DNA of 64,000 bases, from positions 62,001 to 126,000 of the forward strand of contig JAIWWG010000052.1 of NCBI GenBank assembly GCA_025435555.1. Reading direction: 5' to 3'. The notes beneath the pieces are model-generated. The model searched no databases. It was given only the letters and a program-made list of their open reading frames with translations, and was not told the origin of the DNA. Both the position numbers and the translations under genes were made by a program. Below, in pieces: positions 39,124 through 56,245 of the stretch. Each line of letters begins with the position of its first letter. Position 1 is the first letter of the stretch. Source of the DNA: Chytriomyces cf. hyalinus JEL632. Lineage: Eukaryota; Chytridiomycota; Chytridiomycetes; Chytridiales; Chytriomycetaceae.

Positions 39124-41001
39124 ATGAACCAGCGCAACTACACCGCATCATCGGGGTCCGTGCGCGATTGGGATGGCGCCGCCGCTTCCACGCTGGGCCG
39201 TGCAGACACACTTGTCACCCCGGGCGAACTGCAGTTTAGAACCCGCAAAGATACCTTGAAGTCAGCCACACAGCTAGGACCTACTGCCACTGCCTCGGAC
39301 CCTCCACAGCTTCAGCAAGACTGCGAATCTGTCGTCCTAAGCTCTACAGAAACACTTAAGGGGAACTCACACTTCAACTCAGCAGACCCAGCTTATCACA
39401 CGGATACCATCCATTCTGAGTCAATGCCACGATCTGTGTCTTCATACCCGTCGTCCGCGGATCGTTCAATTGACATGGCCGTATTCACCTCACCAGCTGC
39501 GTTCAAACCGCTTTCTCTTCCGCAAGCTCTTGCGAGCCCATCACCAGCAATACTGCTCTCATATCCAAAGATTAGAAAGGCCTCCACACAGTCTGCTTAC
39601 ACCAGCTCATCGCACGTCGTTGCGGACTTGCCATCAAACGCCGTTCGACCTGTCCCCTCATGCGCAGATCCCACTTCAAACGCACTCATGAGTTTCGGAT
39701 CAAGCTTAGCGAGTCCGGACACACGCGTGAATTCGCCGAAAAACTGTCACTATTCTGAATTCCCGACCGAGTCGCCTGATATGTTGGCACAACAACGAGA
39801 AACGCATCGAAAGCTGCTCTTGGAGTACGAGCGACGGACTAATCAGGTCAAGGAGCAGATGCACCATGAGCCGAACGAGAAACCGTTGGACGCACGCCCG
39901 GACACTTCCTCATCACAACCAACGAAACGAAAGATCGCATCCATTCACTGCAACACATCTAAAGCACCCTTCTTTTTTGATATCGGCATTCCCACTCGAG
40001 AACTGGCGGACTATGTGAGTCCCTTTTTTTGTTTTGTGTCCCTCACATGACCCAACCGTCGTTAATCTCCCGTTTTACATTCCCTTTCAAAAAGATTTCA
40101 ATGGTCACTTTCGCAGCGAGAATGCAAGAGTTGAACCACGTTCTCGAAGAGCAGACAACTCTGGCTGACTATGCACCAATGTACAGACTCGGAGCCCTTG
40201 TCGCCGTGACGGTGTGGACCGCCGCTTGTTCTATATTCCTTTCCCTCAGACTAGCACCTTCATTCTCGGCCGGGGTTGCATTCGGTACCATGGATATTCT
40301 GGCAATTTCTGCTGGAATTGTCGGATTTTTGGCCGGAGCGTTTGCCGTCAAGTGGTCATTTTTGAAGGATGGATGTGAAGTAAGTAATGACCTTTTTGCA
40401 TGCAAGCAAGCGAAACCCGAAAATGCGAAATCCAATGCTAAAGCGGATTTCCTTATTGTTGTTTCTGTAGTACCTGCGAACGCTCAAATCTCTTCAAATG
40501 AAATACACGCTCATTGATGCACACCACGGGCTCGTTTGGCGTCTTCACTGGAGCTACCAACCTTTACAACGTCCCCGCAGGGATGCTAGCGATCCCGAGT
40601 CTGCAAAAAACGATCCCGATATGGAACTGGAAAAGGCTACCATAAACCCTCCCTGGCTCAGCACACGCCCGGTACTGCCCAACCTCTGGGTCACTGTGCA
40701 AAAGGAGACATACTCGCTGGTTGCACGGGACGGCGGATTCGTAATGCGTCCTCCCTTATCAAGCAGTACCGTACAGAACACCCCTCGCGAAAGTTTTGAA
40801 AGCCGGATTGATTTGGGAGTTCCCGCAGATTGGGAAGTGAATGGGCATGGAAATGTCAGCGGATGGGTGGAGCAAGTTGATCTATGCTATCTTGTCGATG
40901 CGGACACGCCGCCGAGTGTAAATTTGGATTTCGCATTTGACGAGTATGGTGAGGCGTACATGCAGAACATGATGGAGTTTGACCGGGTTTCGTCCGTGTG
41001 A
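39124..41001 (+). CDS. Two-TM protein family, distant copy (no PPSY)
   Basis: Exons 39124-40014, 40095-40379 and 40471-41001 give 568 residues. A 300-residue disordered Ser/Thr/Pro-rich N-terminus ends IGIPTRELADY at the splice. Exon 2 starts ISMVTFAARMQELNHVL then LADYAPMYRLGALV, followed by two TM segments (AVTVWTAACSIFLSLRLA and MDILAISAGIVGFLAGAF). Exon 3 begins with a soluble part containing LVWRLHWSY and ends acidic. Both introns are phase 0 and sit exactly where introns sit in the tandem copies at 48.6-54.3 kb, which shows common descent. This copy lacks the C-terminal PPSY. Topology by inference: both ends cytoplasmic. Confidence 0.75.
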
Positions 41002-45169: not shown

Positions 45170-47283
45170 ATGGTATTTTTGCCTACACTATTATCCTGCA
45201 AACTCGCTCTGACTCCGCCCGAAATGCATTGCTCGCTCTTGTTCAGTCTGGTCTGGGTCCCGTTAATATCTTCTCAGAAGGAGGTTCCGAAGAGCGCGCC
45301 GAAAACGCTCGTTTGGTGAGTTAAAACACGACTCTCGCAGCTTTCGATTCCTCTCTGTTGTTGCTCACAATCCTTTGCTTCCCTCCAGGCATCTTTTGTC
45401 GGCGCAATTGCCGTCGGAGACTTGGTCAAGAGCACGTTGGGACCAAAGGGAATGGTACGATTATCTGTGCGGAAGGTGGTGCTTAGCTGGCGGTCTCACT
45501 CTGCGTTTTCTCGCCTACCAGGACAAAGTCTTGCAGTCTCTTACGGACGGAAGCATCACCGTCACGAATGACGGCGCAACCATTCTGAAAAGCATTGCAT
45601 TGGATAACGCCGCAGCAAAAGTCTTGGTCAATATTTCCAAAGTTCAGGACGACGAAGTGGGCGACGGTACCACATCTGTTTGCGTTCTTGCTGCCGAATT
45701 GCTGCGTGAAGCTGAGCGTCTCATCAACCAAAAAATTCACCCACAAACTGTTGTCGAGGTGATTTTTTGTCTGCCAACTCTTGTCCAGTTTTTGAACGTG
45801 CTGACGCGGCACTTTTGACAGGGATACCGAATTGCGAGCGCAACTGCCCTGAAGGCCCTCGAAGAAAGTGCTGTGAACAATGGAACCAATGAGGCTCTCT
45901 TTAGAAAGGACTTGATCAACATTGCAAAAACCACTCTCAGTTCAAAAGTGTTGTCGCAAGACAAGGAATACTTTGCAAACCTTGCCGTCGACGCCGTCCT
46001 GAGACTCAAGGTGTGTTTTATCGTGTTTCACTATTATGGATTGCCTCTTACGCATCATCGCCTCATTACCAATTCAGGGAAGCACATCGTTGGAGCACAT
46101 CCAGATTATCAAAAAAATTGGAGGCAAGCTCATGGACTCATATCTCGATGAAGGTTTCATTCTGGACAAAAAGATTGGAGTCAACCAGCCAAAGCGCATT
46201 GAGAACGCCAAAATTCTGATTGCCAACACACGTCAGTTCCCTTTTTCTTCACGCGTTCGAGCCTTTTGAGCCTGATAAGTCTTTTTTGCCCCCATCAGCG
46301 ATGGATACCGACAAGATCAAAATTTTTGGTGCTCGTGTTCGTGTGGATGCCACCGGTAAACTTGCCGAGCTTGAGCGCGCTGAAAAGGACAAGATGAAGG
46401 AAAAGGTTGAGAAAATCAAAGCTCACGGAATCAACTGGTTTGTAAACTTCCTTTCGTCACACATTCAACCGTTTTTCTGATCCAAAGCTGCACAGCTTCA
46501 TTAACCGTCAACTTATCTACAACTGGCCCGAACAACTCTTCGCCGACTCTAATATCACCGCCATTGAGCACGCTGATTTCGTTGGAATTGAGCGTCTTGC
46601 TTTGGTTCTGGGTGGAGAAATTGCATCTACGTTCGATCACCCAGAGCTTGTGAAGCTCGGAAGCTGCAAACTGATTGAAGAAATCATCATTGGAGAGGAT
46701 CGCCTCATTAAATTCAGCGGAGTTGCTGCTGGTGAAGCATGTACTGTCGTGTTGCGTGGAGCAACTCACCAGTTACTGGACGAAGCTGAGCGAAGTCTGC
46801 ATGATGCCCTTTGTGTTCTGAGTCAGACTGTTGCGGAACCCCGAACTGTGCTGGGTGGTGGTTGCAGTGAGTGCTTGATGGCCAAGGCTGTTGATGACGT
46901 TGCCAGAACAACGGAGGGAAAGAAGGCCATGGCTGTGGAGGCTTTCGCCCGGGCATTGAGACAGGTGATTTATACAACTTCAATTCCATCGCGCATTTTT
47001 GCTGATATGTGTTTGCATGTAGCTGCCCACCATTCTTGCTGACAATGCTGGTTACGACTCGTCCGATCTCGTCACGCAACTCCGTGCACGTCACAATGAG
47101 GGCAAATCTTCATCAGGACTGGACATGTACAACGGATGTGTTGCAGACGTGAAGGAGCTTGGTATTACCGAGAGCTTCAAGCTGAAAAGACAGGTGCTGC
47201 TGAGTGCATCGGAAGCCAGTGAGATGATTCTGCGAGTGGATGATATCATTCGCGCTGCCCCAAGACAGCGTAACCGCCAATGA
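45170..47283 (+). CDS. CCT2: T-complex protein 1 subunit beta (CCT2)
   Basis: Subunit of the cytosolic chaperonin TRiC/CCT that folds actin and tubulin. Nine exons: 45170-45172 (ATG alone), 45247-45315, 45389-45454, 45522-45758, 45822-46010, 46078-46231, 46299-46437, 46496-46964 and 47023-47283. Together they give 528 residues, in frame. Matches: [44 protein letters not shown] (ATPase motif), [42 protein letters not shown] and [13 protein letters not shown]. The ATG-only first exon is the only way to begin the conserved SGLGPVNIF without an in-frame stop. All introns are GT..AG. Confidence 0.97.
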
Positions 47284-48602: not shown

Positions 48603-49635
48603 ATGGACGATAAAGACGCTCTGCTTCCATTTGCGCATGCGCCACGGACGGATTCAGGATTCCTGACTAGCAGCATCCATGAAGCGGACAGCAACGACAA
48701 CAGCCCTACAACCACCCAGGAGGAAGAGGACAGCAACAGCGATAACGAACTGCCGCCGTCCATCCAGCCACTCCACAACACGAGCATCTGTCTACTATTG
48801 CGGTACAACAATCCAGACCGCATCTATTTTGACGAATCAATGCCCGCAGAGCTTGAAGGACAGGTGAGGCTCCTTTTGTTTTTTGGTTGGACAGCGAGCG
48901 GCCCATCAAAAAAGAAAGAAAATTTTCTTGAACCCAAACTAAATTTTTTTTTTTGCCCATTTCGAATCCAACCCAGATATCTGCGTTTGAATACCAAACT
49001 CGAATCAAGGACATGAATGCGCGACTTGCTGGGATGAGTAGTTTGGACGATTACGCGCCGCATGTGCGGACGGGTCTTGCGGGGCTGATTGTAGCAATGA
49101 CGTTGGTGCTGCTGGCGCTTGGTGGCAGGCAGCAGAGTAATTCTGGCATCATTCTGTGGCTGTCTGGGATCGTGTTCCTTTCTGTTGTTATTTGCGCCAC
49201 GTTTTCATTCAAGCATGTGAGTAGTGTGTTCATGTCTCTGTGTTGCCAGCTCACACAAAAAGAAATGTGTGTACTGAATTTACTTTTTTGTTACAGAAAT
49301 GCGAACGCCGCATCCACCCATTTCTCGACGCATACAACACTCTTGACGAATCCATCCAACTCAAATGGACTCTGGATCCCCCACACGCACAAACAACACG
49401 AAACTTTTTCGCACTGAAGCTGTCACCAGAGAGCACACGTGTTCCATGGCAGATCCAGATCCAGTATCTGCACAAGGGAGAAGCCGTGTTCCTGCCTGCA
49501 TATGCACCGCGGGAGTCGATGTGGGCGTACCGACGGGGATCAGTTGGAAGCATCATGAGCAGTTTCAGCATCTTTGCTAATAACAACAACAATAACAATA
49601 ATCGACCGCCCAGCTACAAAAGCATGTCGGGATGA
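48603..49635 (+). CDS. Two-TM PPSY protein, tandem copy A
   Basis: Exons 48603-48863, 48977-49216 and 49297-49635 give 279 residues. A disordered acidic/Ser-rich N-terminus is followed by LRYNNPDRIYFDESMPAELE, ending at phase-0 intron 1. The membrane exon has ISAFEYQTRIKDMNARL, LDDYAPHVRTGL, then TM1 (GLIVAMTLVLLALGG) and TM2 (LWLSGIVFLSVVICATF). After intron 2 comes a soluble domain with LDESIQLKW, RVPWQIQIQYLHKG and FLPAYAP. An Asn-rich linker and the C-terminal RPPSYKS follow; PPSY is a PPxY ligand for WW domains. Both ends are probably cytoplasmic. First of four tandem copies. Confidence 0.75.
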
Positions 49636-49707
49636 GCGAGCGTGTGCATCTTTTTTTTCTTTTTAGTACTTTAGAGTGAACAAATAATAAACGTTTTTAG
49701 CAATGGA

Positions 49708-49731
49708 TTTATTTATTTATAAATAAATAAA
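49708..49731. repeat. 24-bp perfect AT palindrome
   Basis: Two 12-base arms of TTTATTTATTTA and its complement meet between 49719 and 49720, 75-100 bp past the stop of tandem copy A. Could be cruciform-prone or part of the 3' end; no evidence of function. Confidence 0.85.
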
Positions 49732-49868
49732 ATATAAATAAATGCAAACAGTGTGTGTTCAACATGAGTTTAATTTAATAGGGCTTGTTGTTGATCCCAA
49801 GTGAGATTTCTATTATTAATCAAACAGAAAGGCCGCCTGTCTGTTCTAGGAAAAAGAGAGAGCCATCC

Positions 49869-51032
49869 ATGCATCCATCGCATCCATCGCATCCATCCAT
49901 GCTGCTTCAGCCTCTGCTGCCTCTGCATACCCAGCAGTCTACACACAGCACCCATTACATCCATCAGACATACACTCCAGGCACTCCAGACACTCCAGGC
50001 TCACCCACCTCATGCAGTCCATCAAAGTCTCCGCCGCCTATCGACCCGGACATTCATTCTTCAGAACCAACCGAGTCCTCACTGCCATCACAAGATCCAT
50101 CCTCGTCACATTCAGAAATCACTGTTGCCAATCAGTCACCAAACCATTCCTCAACTCTCACCATCCCGTTCCACTATCCCTGCGACCAGCCCGAAGGAGA
50201 CCACGACGGCAAGTTCTTTAAAGAGCACATGGACTCCAGTCTAGAAGGCCTCTTGCCCGCATTTGTGTTCCACGCCCGCATGAAGGCGCTTAATGCCAAG
50301 CTGGGTGCCCTGAAGCCAAGACAGTTTGCTGACTGGATGCCCGTGGTGCGGCTGGCCGCAGTGGGCATGTTTGCCTGCGTCAGTGCGTACTTCCTGGGAA
50401 GCAGTCAAGAACGACCGGGGTTGATGCTGTGGTGCGGCAGTCTGGTGGCCCTTGTCGCTGTCATTTTTGCTTCGTTCCGGCGCTCGTCTGTGAGTAATCA
50501 ACAGAAAATTTTTGATTGTCGCCGGATTTTATTCAAAACACCCTTTCTACGCAAATAGACATTAGAGAAGGTCATGCAAACCAGCATCAACGCCTTCAAC
50601 AGACAAGACGAACATCTGCTGATACGATGGAGGCTGCTTCCCCTGCAGGCCCAGAGACACTCGGTCTTTTTCTCGTGGCGCCTTGTCCACGGATGCCGCC
50701 ATTCCATTCCATGGAAGATCCAGATCTCACACTGCAAAAAGAATGGCGATGAGGCCGTGTTTTTGCCTGAATACACGCCCCGTTTTTCAAGTACCTTTCT
50801 GTTGTGCGATCGCGGGCTTCAAGGAATCGAAGTGGCGGAGGCCTTCTCGGTGGATGGTCAGCTGGTGGAAGTGGCAGAGGGCAGTAGCTTAGCACCAGTA
50901 AGCCATGCTGGCTCCGAAGATGCGCTGAACGCTGCAGAGGATGCAATGCTGGCAAGGAGCGAGTTTGGCATTGTCGGACAAAAGACAGCAACAGCTTCAC
51001 GTCCGCCGTCGTATAAATCCTTCCTCATCTAA
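49869..51032 (+). CDS. Two-TM PPSY protein, tandem copy B (intron 1 lost)
   Basis: Two exons (49869-50489, 50559-51032), 364 residues. The N-terminus begins with an HPS repeat (MHPSHPSHPSMLL) from a CATCCATCG array, then Ser/Pro-rich disorder. The stretch MDSSLEGLLPAFVFHARM runs straight through the place where copies A, C and D have intron 1, so that intron is absent here. TM1 is LAAVGMFACVSAYFLGS and TM2 LMLWCGSLVALVAVIFA. Exon 2 has RQDEHLLIRW, SIPWKIQISH, FLPEYTP, and the C-terminus RPPSYKSFLI. Otherwise as copy A. Confidence 0.75.
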
Positions 51033-51166
51033 AAACGCATCACTTCAAAAAAGCCTTTTTTGACAAGAACGAAACGAAACTCTAGAGACACAAGGGACCT
51101 ATTTATTTTACCATTAATTCTTTAAAATGCGATCCTATAAAAAGAAAGATAAAAAAAAAAAAAAGA

Positions 51167-52770
51167 ATGGCGAGCACCAGCACACCTCGCCCGTATGCAT
51201 TCGCAGCAACAACAGCCCTGAGCGAGAGCAGAGCCGATGAATCCCGAGCATCTCATTTCGTGACACTCGAAGAGGCTGTCGAAATGCACTTTGTCGGTGT
51301 TGTTCAGGACGGCGAAGGCGGCAACAGCAGTTGTGAGAGGGTCGAGGATAGAGACCGAGACCGGGACAGAGAGAGGGATGTCTCCAGGAATAGACACCCG
51401 CTTGATAGAGAGGAGGAAGAAATCAGATCCAGTGTTGAGGCGGCGGCTGCGGAGCAGGCCTCGTTCCAGACTCGCACGATTCGGCCGGCAGTTGTCAATG
51501 AATACGCGGATGATGAAGACGAAATTTCCCGCACATCTGTGGCGGCTACAACAGTGGCTGTCCTGAATTTGCGATACAATGACCCTGACGGCCACTACTT
51601 GGACCAGGAAATGCCGTTTGAACTCGAGGGACTGGTACGGGTTAAGGTCCCCCACTATGTCTCCACATCTAAAATGTAACCCACCACTCTCTCTCTTTCT
51701 ACGCAGATACCAACACACGTCTACACGGACAGAATCACCCGCATCAACAAGCGCCTCGGCCAGTTCAGCACACTGAGGGACTACATGCCCGTACTCAGAA
51801 CGTCCATCTTTTTCGTGTTTATCGTCTTTTCGCTGCTGTTTGTTCTCCTTGCGTCACAGTTCTCTGCTGTGTTGCTATGGTGCGTCAGCTTCCTCGGTCT
51901 CGGATCCATGTTCTGTGCACTGCTCTACACTTATTACAAACCACACGTGAGTTGCTCGAAATGGATTTCCCCCCCCCCCCCCCCCCCCCCCCCCCCATTT
52001 CCTTACCTAAGACATATAAACCAACCAACAACAACACCAAAAAAAAGTATGAGCGTTTCATTGAATCCGAAATGGCAGCCTTTTGTGCACAAGATGAACA
52101 CATTCAACTGCTATGGAAAAGCGCGCGCAACTACCATCAACCCATGTTCACCTGCGACTGGTCCAAACGCGCAGCCCAAGTCCCATGGAGGATACTGATA
52201 ACCCACGTCAACAAGCACGGCGCCGATGGCCACTTTTTGCCGGCATATTCACCAGGCGGTGTCGTTCATGACGGAGCAGCAGCAGCAGAAGGGTCTCACA
52301 ACAGTGCTTTGCCGTTCTTGGTTGCAAGAGTGCAAGGAACGCTTTTGAATCCTGATGCGAATGGGACTCGACGAGGAGGAGGCGCTGACGCGGGTTCCCG
52401 CGCTGCTGCTGCTGCTGCTGCCAATACTGCAACTTCTCCTTCTTCTTTATCGTTGCCGCTTTCTCCGGCTACTGCAGAGTCAGCAGCGGACGGTACACAT
52501 CGTTTAGCCATCCCAAGCGTAGCTGCAAACAAAGCTTTACCCTCTGGAAAACGCAAAAAGGAAAATGGACGGACTCGAAGCAATGAAAACGGTGCAAGCA
52601 GTTCGTCGTCAACTGGAGGAGCGCGGGAATTTGTGGATTCTGCGCCGTTGCGGAGTGAGGATGATGACGACGATCATGATGATGATCCTGACTTTAGTGG
52701 TGACTTGCGGATGACTAAAACTGGAACTCAAGTGTCAAAACCGCCAAGCTACCGCAGCTATATTGCATAA
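51167..52770 (+). CDS. Two-TM PPSY protein, tandem copy C
   Basis: Exons 51167-51634, 51707-51946 and 52048-52770 give 476 residues. The N-terminus has a charged RDRDRDRERD run. LRYNDPDGHYLDQEMPFELE leads into intron 1. The membrane exon is exactly 240 nt, as in copy A: IPTHVYTDRITRINKRL, LRDYMPVLRTSIFF, with two TM segments. The soluble domain shows QDEHIQLLW, QVPWRILITH and FLPAYSP. A long Ala/Ser linker, an Asp-rich run and the ending KPPSYRSYIA follow. Intron 2 holds a 28-nt C homopolymer. It is the longest tandem copy because of the linker. Confidence 0.75.
51969..51996 (+). repeat. 28-nt C homopolymer in intron
   Basis: Uninterrupted C run in intron 2 of tandem copy C, between donor GTGAGT (51947) and the acceptor at 52047. 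Prone to length change and assembly error; G-quadruplex potential on the other strand. Confidence 0.9.
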
Positions 52771-52914
52771 AGAAATCATTATTTTTTTTATAAACTGTTT
52801 TTTTGAACTGTTTTCTGGGGAAATTTCATGTGGCGAGAGAACAACGAATGAAGGTCGCACACCGGGGATAAAAAAAAAAATTTCTCAGTCGGTGGTTTGA
52901 CAGCAGCTTGCACA

Positions 52915-54292
52915 ATGGTCTCACCCACAACTCCTCAGAGTCCCAGAAATCTGCGAATTGACTGCGGGGAAAGTCGCGAGCTTACACGGGAGACGGATGC
53001 ACACTCACTTTCCCCACCTTCATGCTGCCAACCGCAGATGGAAATTCAGATGCACATACCCAGCAGCCAATGTACCAATCAACAGCATCAAGGAGAGGAT
53101 AGTCAATCTTTGGAGCAGCTGCCTGTGAATGTGGGTGCAACGAACGTGGAGAAACTGCTACACTCAAATGAAGCCACTCCCACCGCCACCAACCACCATA
53201 CCCAACCTATTTCCGAAACTCGGCTGGAAACTCACGAGATTCTACCGCAACCTGTAGAATCACTACGTATTCCCACATTGTCACTTCAAAATTCATCTTT
53301 GACGCTACTGGCGGCATCTGAATTGGACCCTCATTCCCAAGACCTGCAAACACCGGTAGATACGCAACACGAACCAGGAAATGCAGCAACTATATCTTCT
53401 GCAGCTTTGCCAGTCTCAGAGGATACCACTTCGTCACGGAGGCCGTCACAAACACCGTCCACAGGCACAGTTGCGTCCGCTTCAAGCGTCACGATTATGG
53501 TGGATTCAGCAACACAAAGATTAATTTGTTTAAAGTGCAATTACGAGGCGCTGAAGCGGCAGTACTTTTGCACGGAGATGCCTCAAGAACTGGAAGGAGT
53601 TGTGAGCCCTCTAATTTTTTCGACTTGATTTGTAACACAAACACCCACACCCTCAGATATCTCAACACGACTACCGAAAAAGACTCGTATCACTCAACAA
53701 AAAACTATCACGACTCCTTATCGGCGACTATGGACCCATCCAACGAACCCTCCTAGCCCTGTTCGGCTGCTTTTCATTCACCATCCCATTTCTCCAACTC
53801 GGATCCTCCTCCATGCTCATTTACTGGATCTCCGTATGTTTCGGAATGACATCATTCGTGTACGCGATTCCACGAACATTTGTCCGATCCAAAGCTGAAA
53901 CCTTTGTTCAGACACAAGTCCAAGATTTTTCAAAACAAGATGCATCCATTTGTTTGGTTTGGAACTCGACGCGTACGGTTCGCGCTGCAACGTTTGGTTT
54001 TGATTTTCGGAGGAAGGCTGCACATGTGCCGTGGGTGATTAGTATAAAATATGTGCCAAGAGGTCGTCGCGTTGCTGCTCGTTTGCAGGGTAGTGCTGCT
54101 GGGGAGAGAGAGACGGAGAGAGACGAGGATGGCGGAGGGAATGACTGGGATTCGTGGGATGGAGAGCAGTTGCCAAGATATACTCCTTTGTTGCTCTTGT
54201 CGGACCATGGTCGTGGGCGTCGCAGTGATATGGGGTTGGTTGAAACACGCAGCGTGAGAAATTTGCCAAGCTACAGCACGTTGCCAGGATGA
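52915..54292 (+). CDS. Two-TM LPSY protein, tandem copy D (intron 2 lost)
   Basis: Two exons (52915-53601, 53657-54292), 440 residues. A long disordered Ser/Thr/Gln-rich N-terminus, then EALKRQYFCTEMPQELEGV at intron 1. Membrane exon: ISQHDYRKRLVSLNKKL, IGDYGPIQRTLLALFG, TM1 in LLALFGCFSFTIPFLQL, TM2 in MLIYWISVCFGMTSFVYA. It continues without intron 2 into DFSKQDASICLVWNS and HVPWVISIKYVPRG. The usual LPxYxP site is kept as QLPRYTP. The last residues are NLPSYSTLPG, an LPxY variant of PPxY. Ends 64 bp from the convergent VPS29. Confidence 0.75.
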
Positions 54293-54356
54293 CATAAAAA
54301 ACGACTTTTTGAATACACACAAAAAAAGCATTTTTTATTTGACACATGCCTTTCCT

Positions 54357-55587
54357 TCACACCATTTTTTTGACAAAATCCAGCTTTTCGACTTTCACGT
54401 CGCCGTCAATCAGTTTGTAGACGTACTGTTTGTGCGCGGAGCAGATGAAGAGAAAGGTGGTTCAGCCAACGCGAGAAAAAGTGAGCAAAATCGAAAACTA
54501 CTCACCACAACAACGTTGTTTCCTTGGACATCGAGCAGGGCAAAGCTCGGCACAATGTCCGACACAAGTTTATGCGTTCGAACACGCTCCTTTTCGACGA
54601 CAGTTGCTGGTGCTGGTGGTGGTGATTGAGTATTTGCGCCTTCTGCTGCTGAGGTCGTTTCCTTGGCCTTCTTCTTTCTCTTTTTCTTTGCCGGAGCGCC
54701 CCAAGCGCCAATAGGGTTGATGGGGTCATCTTCGTCATGGACATTGTCATTGTCATCCTCATCATCCTCCTCCTCCTCATCACTTCCCGACTCCTCTTCC
54801 CCATTGATAGCATTGTCTTTCGCGTCCACAGGTGATTCTTGGTGATCCAGCTTCTTTTCATCTTTGGAATCATTGGCAACCGCGTCATCATTCTTCCCAG
54901 CATCTCCATTTCCAACCTCCACATCTCCTGCAACAGTATCACTCTCTAATGCAGGCGCAGCAGCAGCAGCAGCAGGAGGCACAGGCAGAGGCACGCTCAC
55001 AAGCGGCCTAAAGGACGAGAAAGCCCCCGTCGCAGAGCCCGGATTAATATAAAAGCGACCTTCGCTCTCAAACGCTTCAAATGCATGCGTGTGACCAGAT
55101 ACGAGAACATCCACGTCCAGTTCGCGCGCAACTCCAGACAATGCAAGCCGGTCTCCCCAAGGAATGACTGAGTGGCCGTGGATTACTCCAATTCGTACTG
55201 TGCCCACGGTTACGGATGCTGAGAGAGGAAGCGGGTTTCCTGAATATAAACCAGGATGAGTGAATGCACCAGAGGCACTTTTTTAAGTAATAAACACCGA
55301 CACGAACCACCCACAAGCACTGAAGGGTCATCAAAGTCGCCTTGCACGGCCGTCATGTCCGCAGAGACGCCTCGTAGATAGTCCATTGCTTCTTTTGAGT
55401 TGACGTTTCCTGTGCAGAGAATCTTGTTGATTTTGCCTGTCTCCAAGGTGGGGGGTGAGCATTCTCTCTGCACTTGTCAGTTGGGTATTCTCTATTTACC
55501 TGGAGCCAGGAGCTTCTTGAACTTTGCCGGCAGGTCCACGGCGCGATGCGGGACATGCAGGTCGCCAATCACAAGAACAAGCACCAT
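54357..55587 (-). CDS. VPS29: Retromer subunit VPS29 with large acidic insert
   Basis: Cargo-sorting retromer core subunit with a metallophosphoesterase-like fold. The start [20 protein letters not shown], then [56 protein letters not shown] and [12 protein letters not shown] match VPS29 closely. The C-terminal exon after the intron at about 54.4-54.5 kb gives [17 protein letters not shown]. Between [13 protein letters not shown] and [13 protein letters not shown], where other VPS29 proteins have only about five residues, lies an insert of about 148 residues. It is Ala/Pro-rich, then Asp/Glu-rich, then has KKKRKKKAK. The insert is in frame in one uninterrupted exon. It sits in a surface loop of the fold, so the core could still fold. 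Confidence 0.9.
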
Positions 55588-56245
55588 TTTAAAAGCACTT
55601 TTTACATGAAATACAAGACCATTTCTCTCTCAATCCGCTTCCTTCCCGTGTGTCTCCAGACGCTGTTCAGACCTCTCCAGTGCGCCTGGAGACGTGTGAG
55701 TGGCCGTCTGCAGCAGCGGCACGTCTTCAGTCGAATTGATCGCAGCAGCGCTTGCTTCGATCAGCAGAGGGTCCAGTCCATGCGGTCCAGTCCATGCGCA
55801 GCAGCGTCGCTTTCTCTTGCGGCATGCCTGGGTTACCCGGCAGCAATTCAGCAGCCGATCTATCCCAATCTATCGAATGTCTTCCGGATCCTCCACACCT
55901 TCCGAATCAGTGGATCTCTATCTTATATCATCAGCCAGCACGCCATCGAATCGCAACAGTGGCTCGAACTTTATTCACAGGGATGCATCAGTCGAACACA
56001 GTAACCTCACCCGCTGTCAAATCTCAGCATTGCCGCTTGAGCTGTATTCAAAGGTGGCATAACGTAATCAGTATCCTCGGCCGCTTTGCCGTCGGCAGGC
56101 CGCATCATATGCACCAGTCTGGCAGAATCAATTGCACCCGTTGGACCCGCCATGCAGCACTCGTAATTTCTCTTCAATGGTGCACATCACGAACGCATTT
56201 TATTTGCTATCCTCAACATATAACGAACAGCAGGAACTAGTGTCT
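55588..56245. other. Unassigned interval with a possible F-box fragment
   Basis: A plus-strand frame at about 55840-56062 contains CQISALPLELYSKVA, which recalls an F-box start, then stops. I could not extend it by splicing. It may be a truncated pseudogene or chance; otherwise nothing is seen. Confidence 0.25.

Follow-up and report, generated by a model that had tools for sequence, protein, structure and literature searches.

A family of putative Erf4-like proteins with two predicted transmembrane segments and PY-motif tails in a chytrid genome

Erf4/GOLGA7 proteins stabilize DHHC S-acyltransferases, and in yeast Erf4 prevents polyubiquitination and degradation of the acyltransferase Erf2 (passages of PMC7586229 and PMC10076531). 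According to the review PMC7586229, loss of yeast Erf4 leads to polyubiquitination of Erf2 and its destruction by endoplasmic reticulum-associated degradation, so a link between Erf4 and ubiquitin already exists. For GOLGA7, passages of PMC12528901 report two short amphipathic helices that enter the membrane beside the DHHC enzyme and an RDYS loop, after the first strand, that touches the zinc-finger region of that enzyme. Nedd4-family WW domains recognize PY motifs of both kinds, PPxY and LPxY (PMC8509885). Here we describe a family of at least 17 genes in Chytriomyces cf. hyalinus JEL632 whose proteins have two predicted transmembrane (TM) segments, PY motifs in most C-terminal tails, and an N-terminal part that is very probably a distant homolog of Erf4/GOLGA7. 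The starting point was an array of four genes, g1 to g4, in a stretch of 64,000 nucleotides (contig JAIWWG010000052.1, positions 62,001 to 126,000, forward strand), which we call the window.

The original prediction described four neighboring plus-strand genes of a common layout at positions 48603-54292 of the window. We find intact reading frames in all four, with ends exactly as it gave them and products of 279, 364, 476, and 440 amino acids (aa). The gene models consist of GT..AG introns and assumed start codons and were derived from genomic sequence alone. The features of the array are as follows.

48603..49635, plus strand: g1, putative Erf4-like two-TM protein, 279 aa; exons 48603-48863, 48977-49216, 49297-49635; C-terminal end PPSYKSMSG (from splice sites, intact frame, and Pfam Erf4 match)
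49073..49123, plus strand: g1 TM1, hydrophobic window aa 120-136
49148..49198, plus strand: g1 TM2, hydrophobic window aa 145-161
49492..49509, plus strand: g1 LPAYAP, motif in translation
49606..49617, plus strand: g1 PPSY, first residue ninth-last of the protein
49869..51032, plus strand: g2, 364 aa; exons 49869-50489, 50559-51032; lacks the first intron; C-terminal end PPSYKSFLI
50343..50393, plus strand: g2 TM1, hydrophobic window aa 159-175
50421..50471, plus strand: g2 TM2, hydrophobic window aa 185-201
50763..50780, plus strand: g2 LPEYTP, motif in translation
51003..51014, plus strand: g2 PPSY, first residue ninth-last
51167..52770, plus strand: g3, 476 aa; exons 51167-51634, 51707-51946, 52048-52770; C-terminal end PPSYRSYIA
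51803..51853, plus strand: g3 TM1, hydrophobic window aa 189-205
51866..51916, plus strand: g3 TM2, hydrophobic window aa 210-226
52237..52254, plus strand: g3 LPAYSP, motif in translation
52741..52752, plus strand: g3 PPSY, first residue ninth-last
52915..54292, plus strand: g4, 440 aa; exons 52915-53601, 53657-54292; lacks the second intron; C-terminal end LPSYSTLPG (Pfam Erf4 match)
53750..53800, plus strand: g4 TM1, hydrophobic window aa 261-277; AlphaFold2 helix at exon 2 residues 25-46
53819..53869, plus strand: g4 TM2, hydrophobic window aa 284-300; AlphaFold2 helix at exon 2 residues 52-94 extends beyond TM2
54170..54187, plus strand: g4 LPRYTP, motif in translation
54263..54274, plus strand: g4 LPSY, first residue ninth-last

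Sequence identity within the array is low, as had been noted: compared with g1, it is 32% for g2, 31% for g3, and 27% for g4. The columns that are invariant across all four proteins include M..LEG, an R (in a helix with R....N), N, PW.I.I, LP.Y.P, and PSY. In each protein, two segments are hydrophobic (Kyte-Doolittle means over 17 residues of 1.6 to 3.0) and an LPxYxP motif is present, and the C-terminal PPSY (g1 to g3) or LPSY (g4) begins at the ninth-last residue in every case, so these parts of the proposed layout stand. Two other parts hold for most of the array only. The MPxELEG junction does not hold for g2, which has HMDSSLEG with a 6-residue insert ahead of it. Likewise, intron positions are common to most array genes, but the first intron, which follows ELEG, is found in g1, g3, and g4 and not in g2, and the second, which follows TM2, is found in g1, g2, and g3 and not in g4.

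We searched the 37.8-Mb assembly that contains the window (242 contigs), first with six single proteins as queries and then with a seventh to see if the set was exhausted, and obtained 17 family genes, which is a lower bound. The set is thus larger than the array: a fifth member, E, lies in the same window, and another 12 are encoded outside it. By contig, the members are g1 to g4 and E (C191); A and B (C167); C, D, H, and J (C177, with H and J ~80 kb from C and D); F0, F1, and F2 (C35); G (C32); G2 (C193); and I (C201). Sixteen of these were assembled whole, with assumed starts, and F0 was assembled without its first exon. The fifth member in the window is as follows.

39124..41001, plus strand: E, 568 aa; exons 39124-40014, 40095-40379, 40471-41001; both introns at family positions; two TM segments; long tails; no LP/PPxY motif

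Member E scores 54.9 bits against a profile of the 16 other cores, a value reached by none of 5,000 shuffles; its C-terminal part alone scores 4.5 bits, a value reached by 25 of 5,000 shuffles. In a tree of 16 cores (F0 excluded), g1 to g4, A, and B fall on one side of a branch that is found in 92% of bootstrap trees and has support of 93/90, slightly short of what the program counts as strong, and E adjoins this group under a midpoint root. Related members also stand side by side in two clusters that are perhaps a duplicated block, one with D and C (L032/L034, C177:291634-293290) and one with F0, F1, and F2 (L047/L035, C35:323905-326704). C and F2 are 64% identical.

PY motifs are present in the predicted cytosolic tails of this family more often than expected by chance. 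An [LP]PxY motif occurs in the C-terminal tail of 15 of 17 members (21 motifs), whereas in 2,000 sets of shuffled tails it occurs in 0.7 proteins on average and in no more than 5. PPxY occurs in the N-terminal tail of 6 of the 16 assembled members (shuffles: mean 0.6, maximum 4), and 10 of 17 members have PPxY in at least one tail. In the C-terminal count LPxY joined the pattern after being seen; in all counts the boundaries of the tails were drawn by hand, and the paralogs are not independent trials but share descent, for which shuffling makes no correction. In two close pairs, G/G2 and C/F2, the N- and C-terminal motifs are retained in tails that drift. The whole-protein ratios of nonsynonymous to synonymous divergence (dN/dS) are 0.13 and 0.20, respectively, with a dS for C/F2 of 1.3, which is near saturation. 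These results agree with the suggestion, made from the array alone, that the constraint is on two-TM topology and the PY motif.

The hydrophobic pair is present in all 17 members, with an intervening loop of 2 to 16 residues that contains 0 or 1 Lys/Arg (F0 without exon 1). The outer sides of the hairpin have 1 to 5 Lys/Arg per 15 residues on each side. From these charges we infer that both protein ends are cytosolic, so that the PY motifs could reach Rsp5. Additional, weaker hydrophobic peaks are found elsewhere in F2, G, G2, and J.

The original prediction had connected these proteins with no named family. Their N-terminal block, from MPxELEG to LN, does resemble Erf4/GOLGA7, though under curated thresholds. 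The Pfam Erf4 model (PF10256) matches over the MPxELEG block in g1 (E value of 0.0032) and g4 (0.0057; 17.1 bits), and no Erf4 match was found for g2 or g3 in the same scan. Among whole cores, Erf4 is the commonest Pfam model, matched by 8 of 16 at E values up to 1 (best, 0.0012). When N-terminal parts were scanned alone, without the membrane segments, 7 of 15 matched Erf4 at E values up to 10, with 3.6e-4 as the best value; every other model among the 24,736 was matched by one of the 15 at most. The g1 N-terminal part alone has an E value of 0.00099 and 19.5 bits (whole core, 19.3 bits), and the region matched by members and by family consensus sequences is model positions 7-68. A profile of 16 cores, searched against 177,635 PDB sequences, ranks GOLGA7 first and second (8hf3_B and 9oa6_B; E values of 0.028 and 0.032), and GOLGA7 is again on top with the N-part-only profile (0.24). 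The 10.8-bit score of the GOLGA7 fragment was reached by 0 of 5,000 shuffles of its own sequence with either the full or the TM-less profile; with the N-part profile, 4 of 5,000 shuffles reach its score. By eye, the order of elements is common to the family and GOLGA7, and the Tyr of the RDYS loop is aligned in 6 of 6 members of the array clade. These results are individually weak but concordant, and they point to a likely, recognizable homology of the N-terminal strand-strand-helix part to Erf4/GOLGA7.

The genome also contains other parts of both systems. An orthodox Erf4 of 143 residues, joined by eye from three exons, is found on C232 (L008), with E values of 3.4e-12 for the Pfam model and about 1e-6 for GOLGA7. 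DHHC domains give 17 exon-level matches, grouped into 14 loci, two of which look Erf2/DHHC9-like in sequence. There are 25 WW domain matches, and an Rsp5-type ligase gene at C1:660226-662189 has three WW domains in one frame (660349-660891) followed by HECT up to 662189. Among the DHHC genes, the two Erf2-like ones (L061, C111:241186, and L065, C30:22465) are near-identical in the pieces compared and may have arisen by recent duplication or represent alleles of one gene, and two DHHC relatives (L063, C13:338762, and L064, C229:90899) have DHFC instead of DHHC and are perhaps inactive or altered.

Based on the PY motifs, the hairpin, and the N-terminal resemblance, we propose that a divergent Erf4/GOLGA7-like domain is the basis of these two-TM proteins and that a TM hairpin would have replaced the membrane part of GOLGA7. 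Their cytosolic tails would bear WW ligands, as LPxYxP right after the last strand, as PPSY/LPSY at the end, or as PPxY in the N-terminal tail. The Erf4-like part and the hairpin would anchor the protein in a membrane complex whose other partner might be either a DHHC S-acyltransferase or a client recognized in place of the enzyme, and the PY motifs would recruit an Rsp5/NEDD4-type WW-HECT ligase to that complex. Ubiquitination of this partner, or of the Erf4-like protein, might follow, and with it sorting or degradation. This would be a natural turn of the role of Erf4, with a relative bringing a ligase rather than shielding from one. We assign a probability of about 0.5 to the reading that Erf4-like proteins acquired two TM segments and came to recruit Rsp5, perhaps into complexes with acyltransferases. 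The earlier idea that the array encodes membrane adaptors is strengthened by the sequence analysis.

Several results weigh against the proposal that Erf4-like proteins recruit Rsp5. Two members have no LP/PPxY in the C-terminal tail (E, with none, and I, with APTY), WW-domain binding itself stays predicted, and two Erf2-like enzymes are too few to be one-to-one partners of 17 proteins. The best printed Erf4 score, 19.5 bits for g1, is below the curated (gathering) cut-off of 29.3 bits, and the E values of the other members imply the same. Family consensus sequences score 13.2 to 18.9 bits; Erf4 comes first for one of three and is outranked by DUF2207_C for the others, and by SUR7 and DUF6232 for one. 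When the whole genome was searched at E values up to 10, PF10256 found the orthodox Erf4 only and 0 of 17 family members. For the C-terminal helix-strand part, Pfam scans matched Erf4 in 0 of 16, a PDB search gave no GOLGA7, and 1,795 of 5,000 shuffles reach the GOLGA7 score; its pattern is similar to GOLGA7 by eye only. When 16 cores were aligned by hhalign with a two-sequence alignment of the orthodox Erf4 and GOLGA7, the probability was 15% (P value of 0.0018; 40 columns). The score of the genome's orthodox Erf4 against the family profile is reached by 118 of 5,000 shuffles (full), 230 of 5,000 (TM-less), or 1,504 of 5,000 (N part), and this protein has no score with the C-part profile. RDYS is found at the corresponding place in 0 of 15 members (E and F0 are outside this count), with Tyr in 7 and an aromatic residue in 11.

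Structure prediction adds to these points. AlphaFold2, run on g4 exon 2 together with seven exon rows from the window, produced a model with one helix, then TM1, and then a long helix from TM2 onward; the predicted local distance difference test score (pLDDT) is 58.6 overall, with block values of 68 to 85 for the helices and mostly <50 for the strand part. A Foldseek comparison of the kind that the original prediction called for was carried out with this model against the PDB, but the best E value was 1.8, to unrelated proteins, with nothing below 1 and the strand part unfolded. The helices are the usable part of the model, and we assert no fold on this basis. PDB searches with a profile of g1 to g4 alone and by phmmer with the family consensus gave no match, and a profile that included GOLGA7, which is circular and not evidence, did not retrieve yeast Erf4. 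Because of the subthreshold and contrary results and the nonconserved RDYS loop, we name the members Erf4-like and do not file them as Erf4.

Other families were also considered. Further Pfam models that matched cores were DUF2207_C (5 of 16), Wzy_C (2), and TM7S3_TM198 (1, with an E value of 0.0024); SUR7 was among the models that matched consensus sequences. These matches are under cut-offs where these were printed. Since the matches that could be placed cross the TM hairpin and none recurs in the N-part-only scan, we rejected a transporter or enzyme family, an outcome that the original prediction had named as refuting it. Two NCBIfam matches, in one member each, were taken as chance, and a PHROGs scan of the family gave nothing at E values up to 0.01. 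A literature search on Erf4/GOLGA7 with Rsp5, PPxY, or chytrids, with most subscription papers outside its scope, found no paper on such a family.

Two alternatives overlap with recruitment of Rsp5 by Erf4-like proteins. In the first, the proteins are anchored adaptors for non-DHHC membrane clients, such as transporters or SNAREs, in the manner of Bsd2, Tre1, Ssh4, or NDFIP, and the Erf4 fold is merely a scaffold. The PY motifs in 15 of 17 members and the two TM segments fit this, and the number and divergence of the genes match expectation for client-specific adaptors. The contrast of 17 genes with two Erf2-like enzymes favors partners other than DHHC enzymes as well. Nothing supports a particular client, however, and the Erf4-like surface would have to be reused; we regard this alternative as less likely than not. 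In the second, which seems to us somewhat less plausible still, the family would act as Erf4 does, as accessory subunits of S-acyltransferases: each protein would stabilize or localize a DHHC enzyme, and the PY motifs would mainly control the proteins' own turnover by Rsp5. The Erf4-like N-terminal part, the 14 DHHC loci with their two Erf2/DHHC9-like genes, and the contact of GOLGA7 with DHHC enzymes (passages of PMC12528901) are consistent with this, but the RDYS loop is not conserved, the Erf2-like enzymes are outnumbered 17 to 2, and an orthodox Erf4 is already encoded on C232.

It is improbable that the resemblance to Erf4/GOLGA7 is due to chance and that these membrane proteins with PY tails form a family unrelated to it. 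All matches under curated thresholds, an unmatched C-terminal half, the weak match to the genome's own Erf4, and the failure of PF10256 to find the family are what such coincidence would give, but 7 of 15 N-terminal parts match one and the same model out of 24,736, GOLGA7 leads an independent PDB search, and by eye the elements follow the same order. We consider distant homology of the family to Erf4/GOLGA7, carried by the N-terminal part, very probable. YxxPhi is a sorting-signal pattern, which can overlap with a PY motif as in PPxYxxL of ENaC. That the C-terminal Tyr motif is such a signal for adaptor complexes (YKSM, YKSF, YSTL) rather than a WW ligand, or that both overlap, is the least likely alternative: g1, g2, g4, and PPDYRSM in the N-terminal tail of F1 fit by sequence, but YRSY of g3 and the PPSYKK end of A do not, and the P ahead of Ser-Tyr is retained where the +3 residue varies.

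The array has two neighbors that were recognized by eye. The end of a putative gene for a CCT chaperonin subunit lies at 46446-47283 of the window on the plus strand, and a putative gene for a Vps29-like metallophosphoesterase with a long acidic insert lies downstream of the array (54340-55850, minus strand).

Compared with known systems, the family would join S-acylation and NEDD4-type ubiquitination in one protein, as a large, membrane-spanning Erf4-like set with ligase-binding motifs. In a more specific scenario, which we hold to be doubtful, the gene for the accessory subunit of the Ras S-acyltransferase duplicated in this lineage, its products acquired PY tails and a genuine TM hairpin, and 17 or more adaptors resulted, specific for different clients and linking S-acylation complexes with Rsp5. 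If this is true, an S-acylation helper has been converted into a ubiquitin-ligase adaptor family, which would illustrate how an accessory subunit becomes one. Membrane-anchored Rsp5/NEDD4 adaptors with PY motifs (Bsd2, Tre1/2, Ear1/Ssh4, and NDFIP) carry LP/PPxY as this family does but have other folds and TM numbers, and the likeness is one of description. Human GOLGA7/GCP16 (PDB entries 8hf3 and 9oa6) shares with the family a block, Y......F....PAELE..I, that aligns without gaps to g1, and a middle part that enters the membrane with a helix after it. In contrast, GOLGA7 is peripheral, with its two short amphipathic helices (parts of PMC12528901), and the compared fragment has one hydrophobic peak and no LP/PPxY, while RDYS is present in GOLGA7. 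Yeast Erf4, the Ras palmitoyltransferase subunit for which PF10256 stands, is matched by family members at the model positions given above, but the family scores under the gathering threshold, has two TM segments where the orthodox Erf4 has a single hydrophobic peak, bears PY tails, and is present in 17 copies beside an orthodox Erf4.

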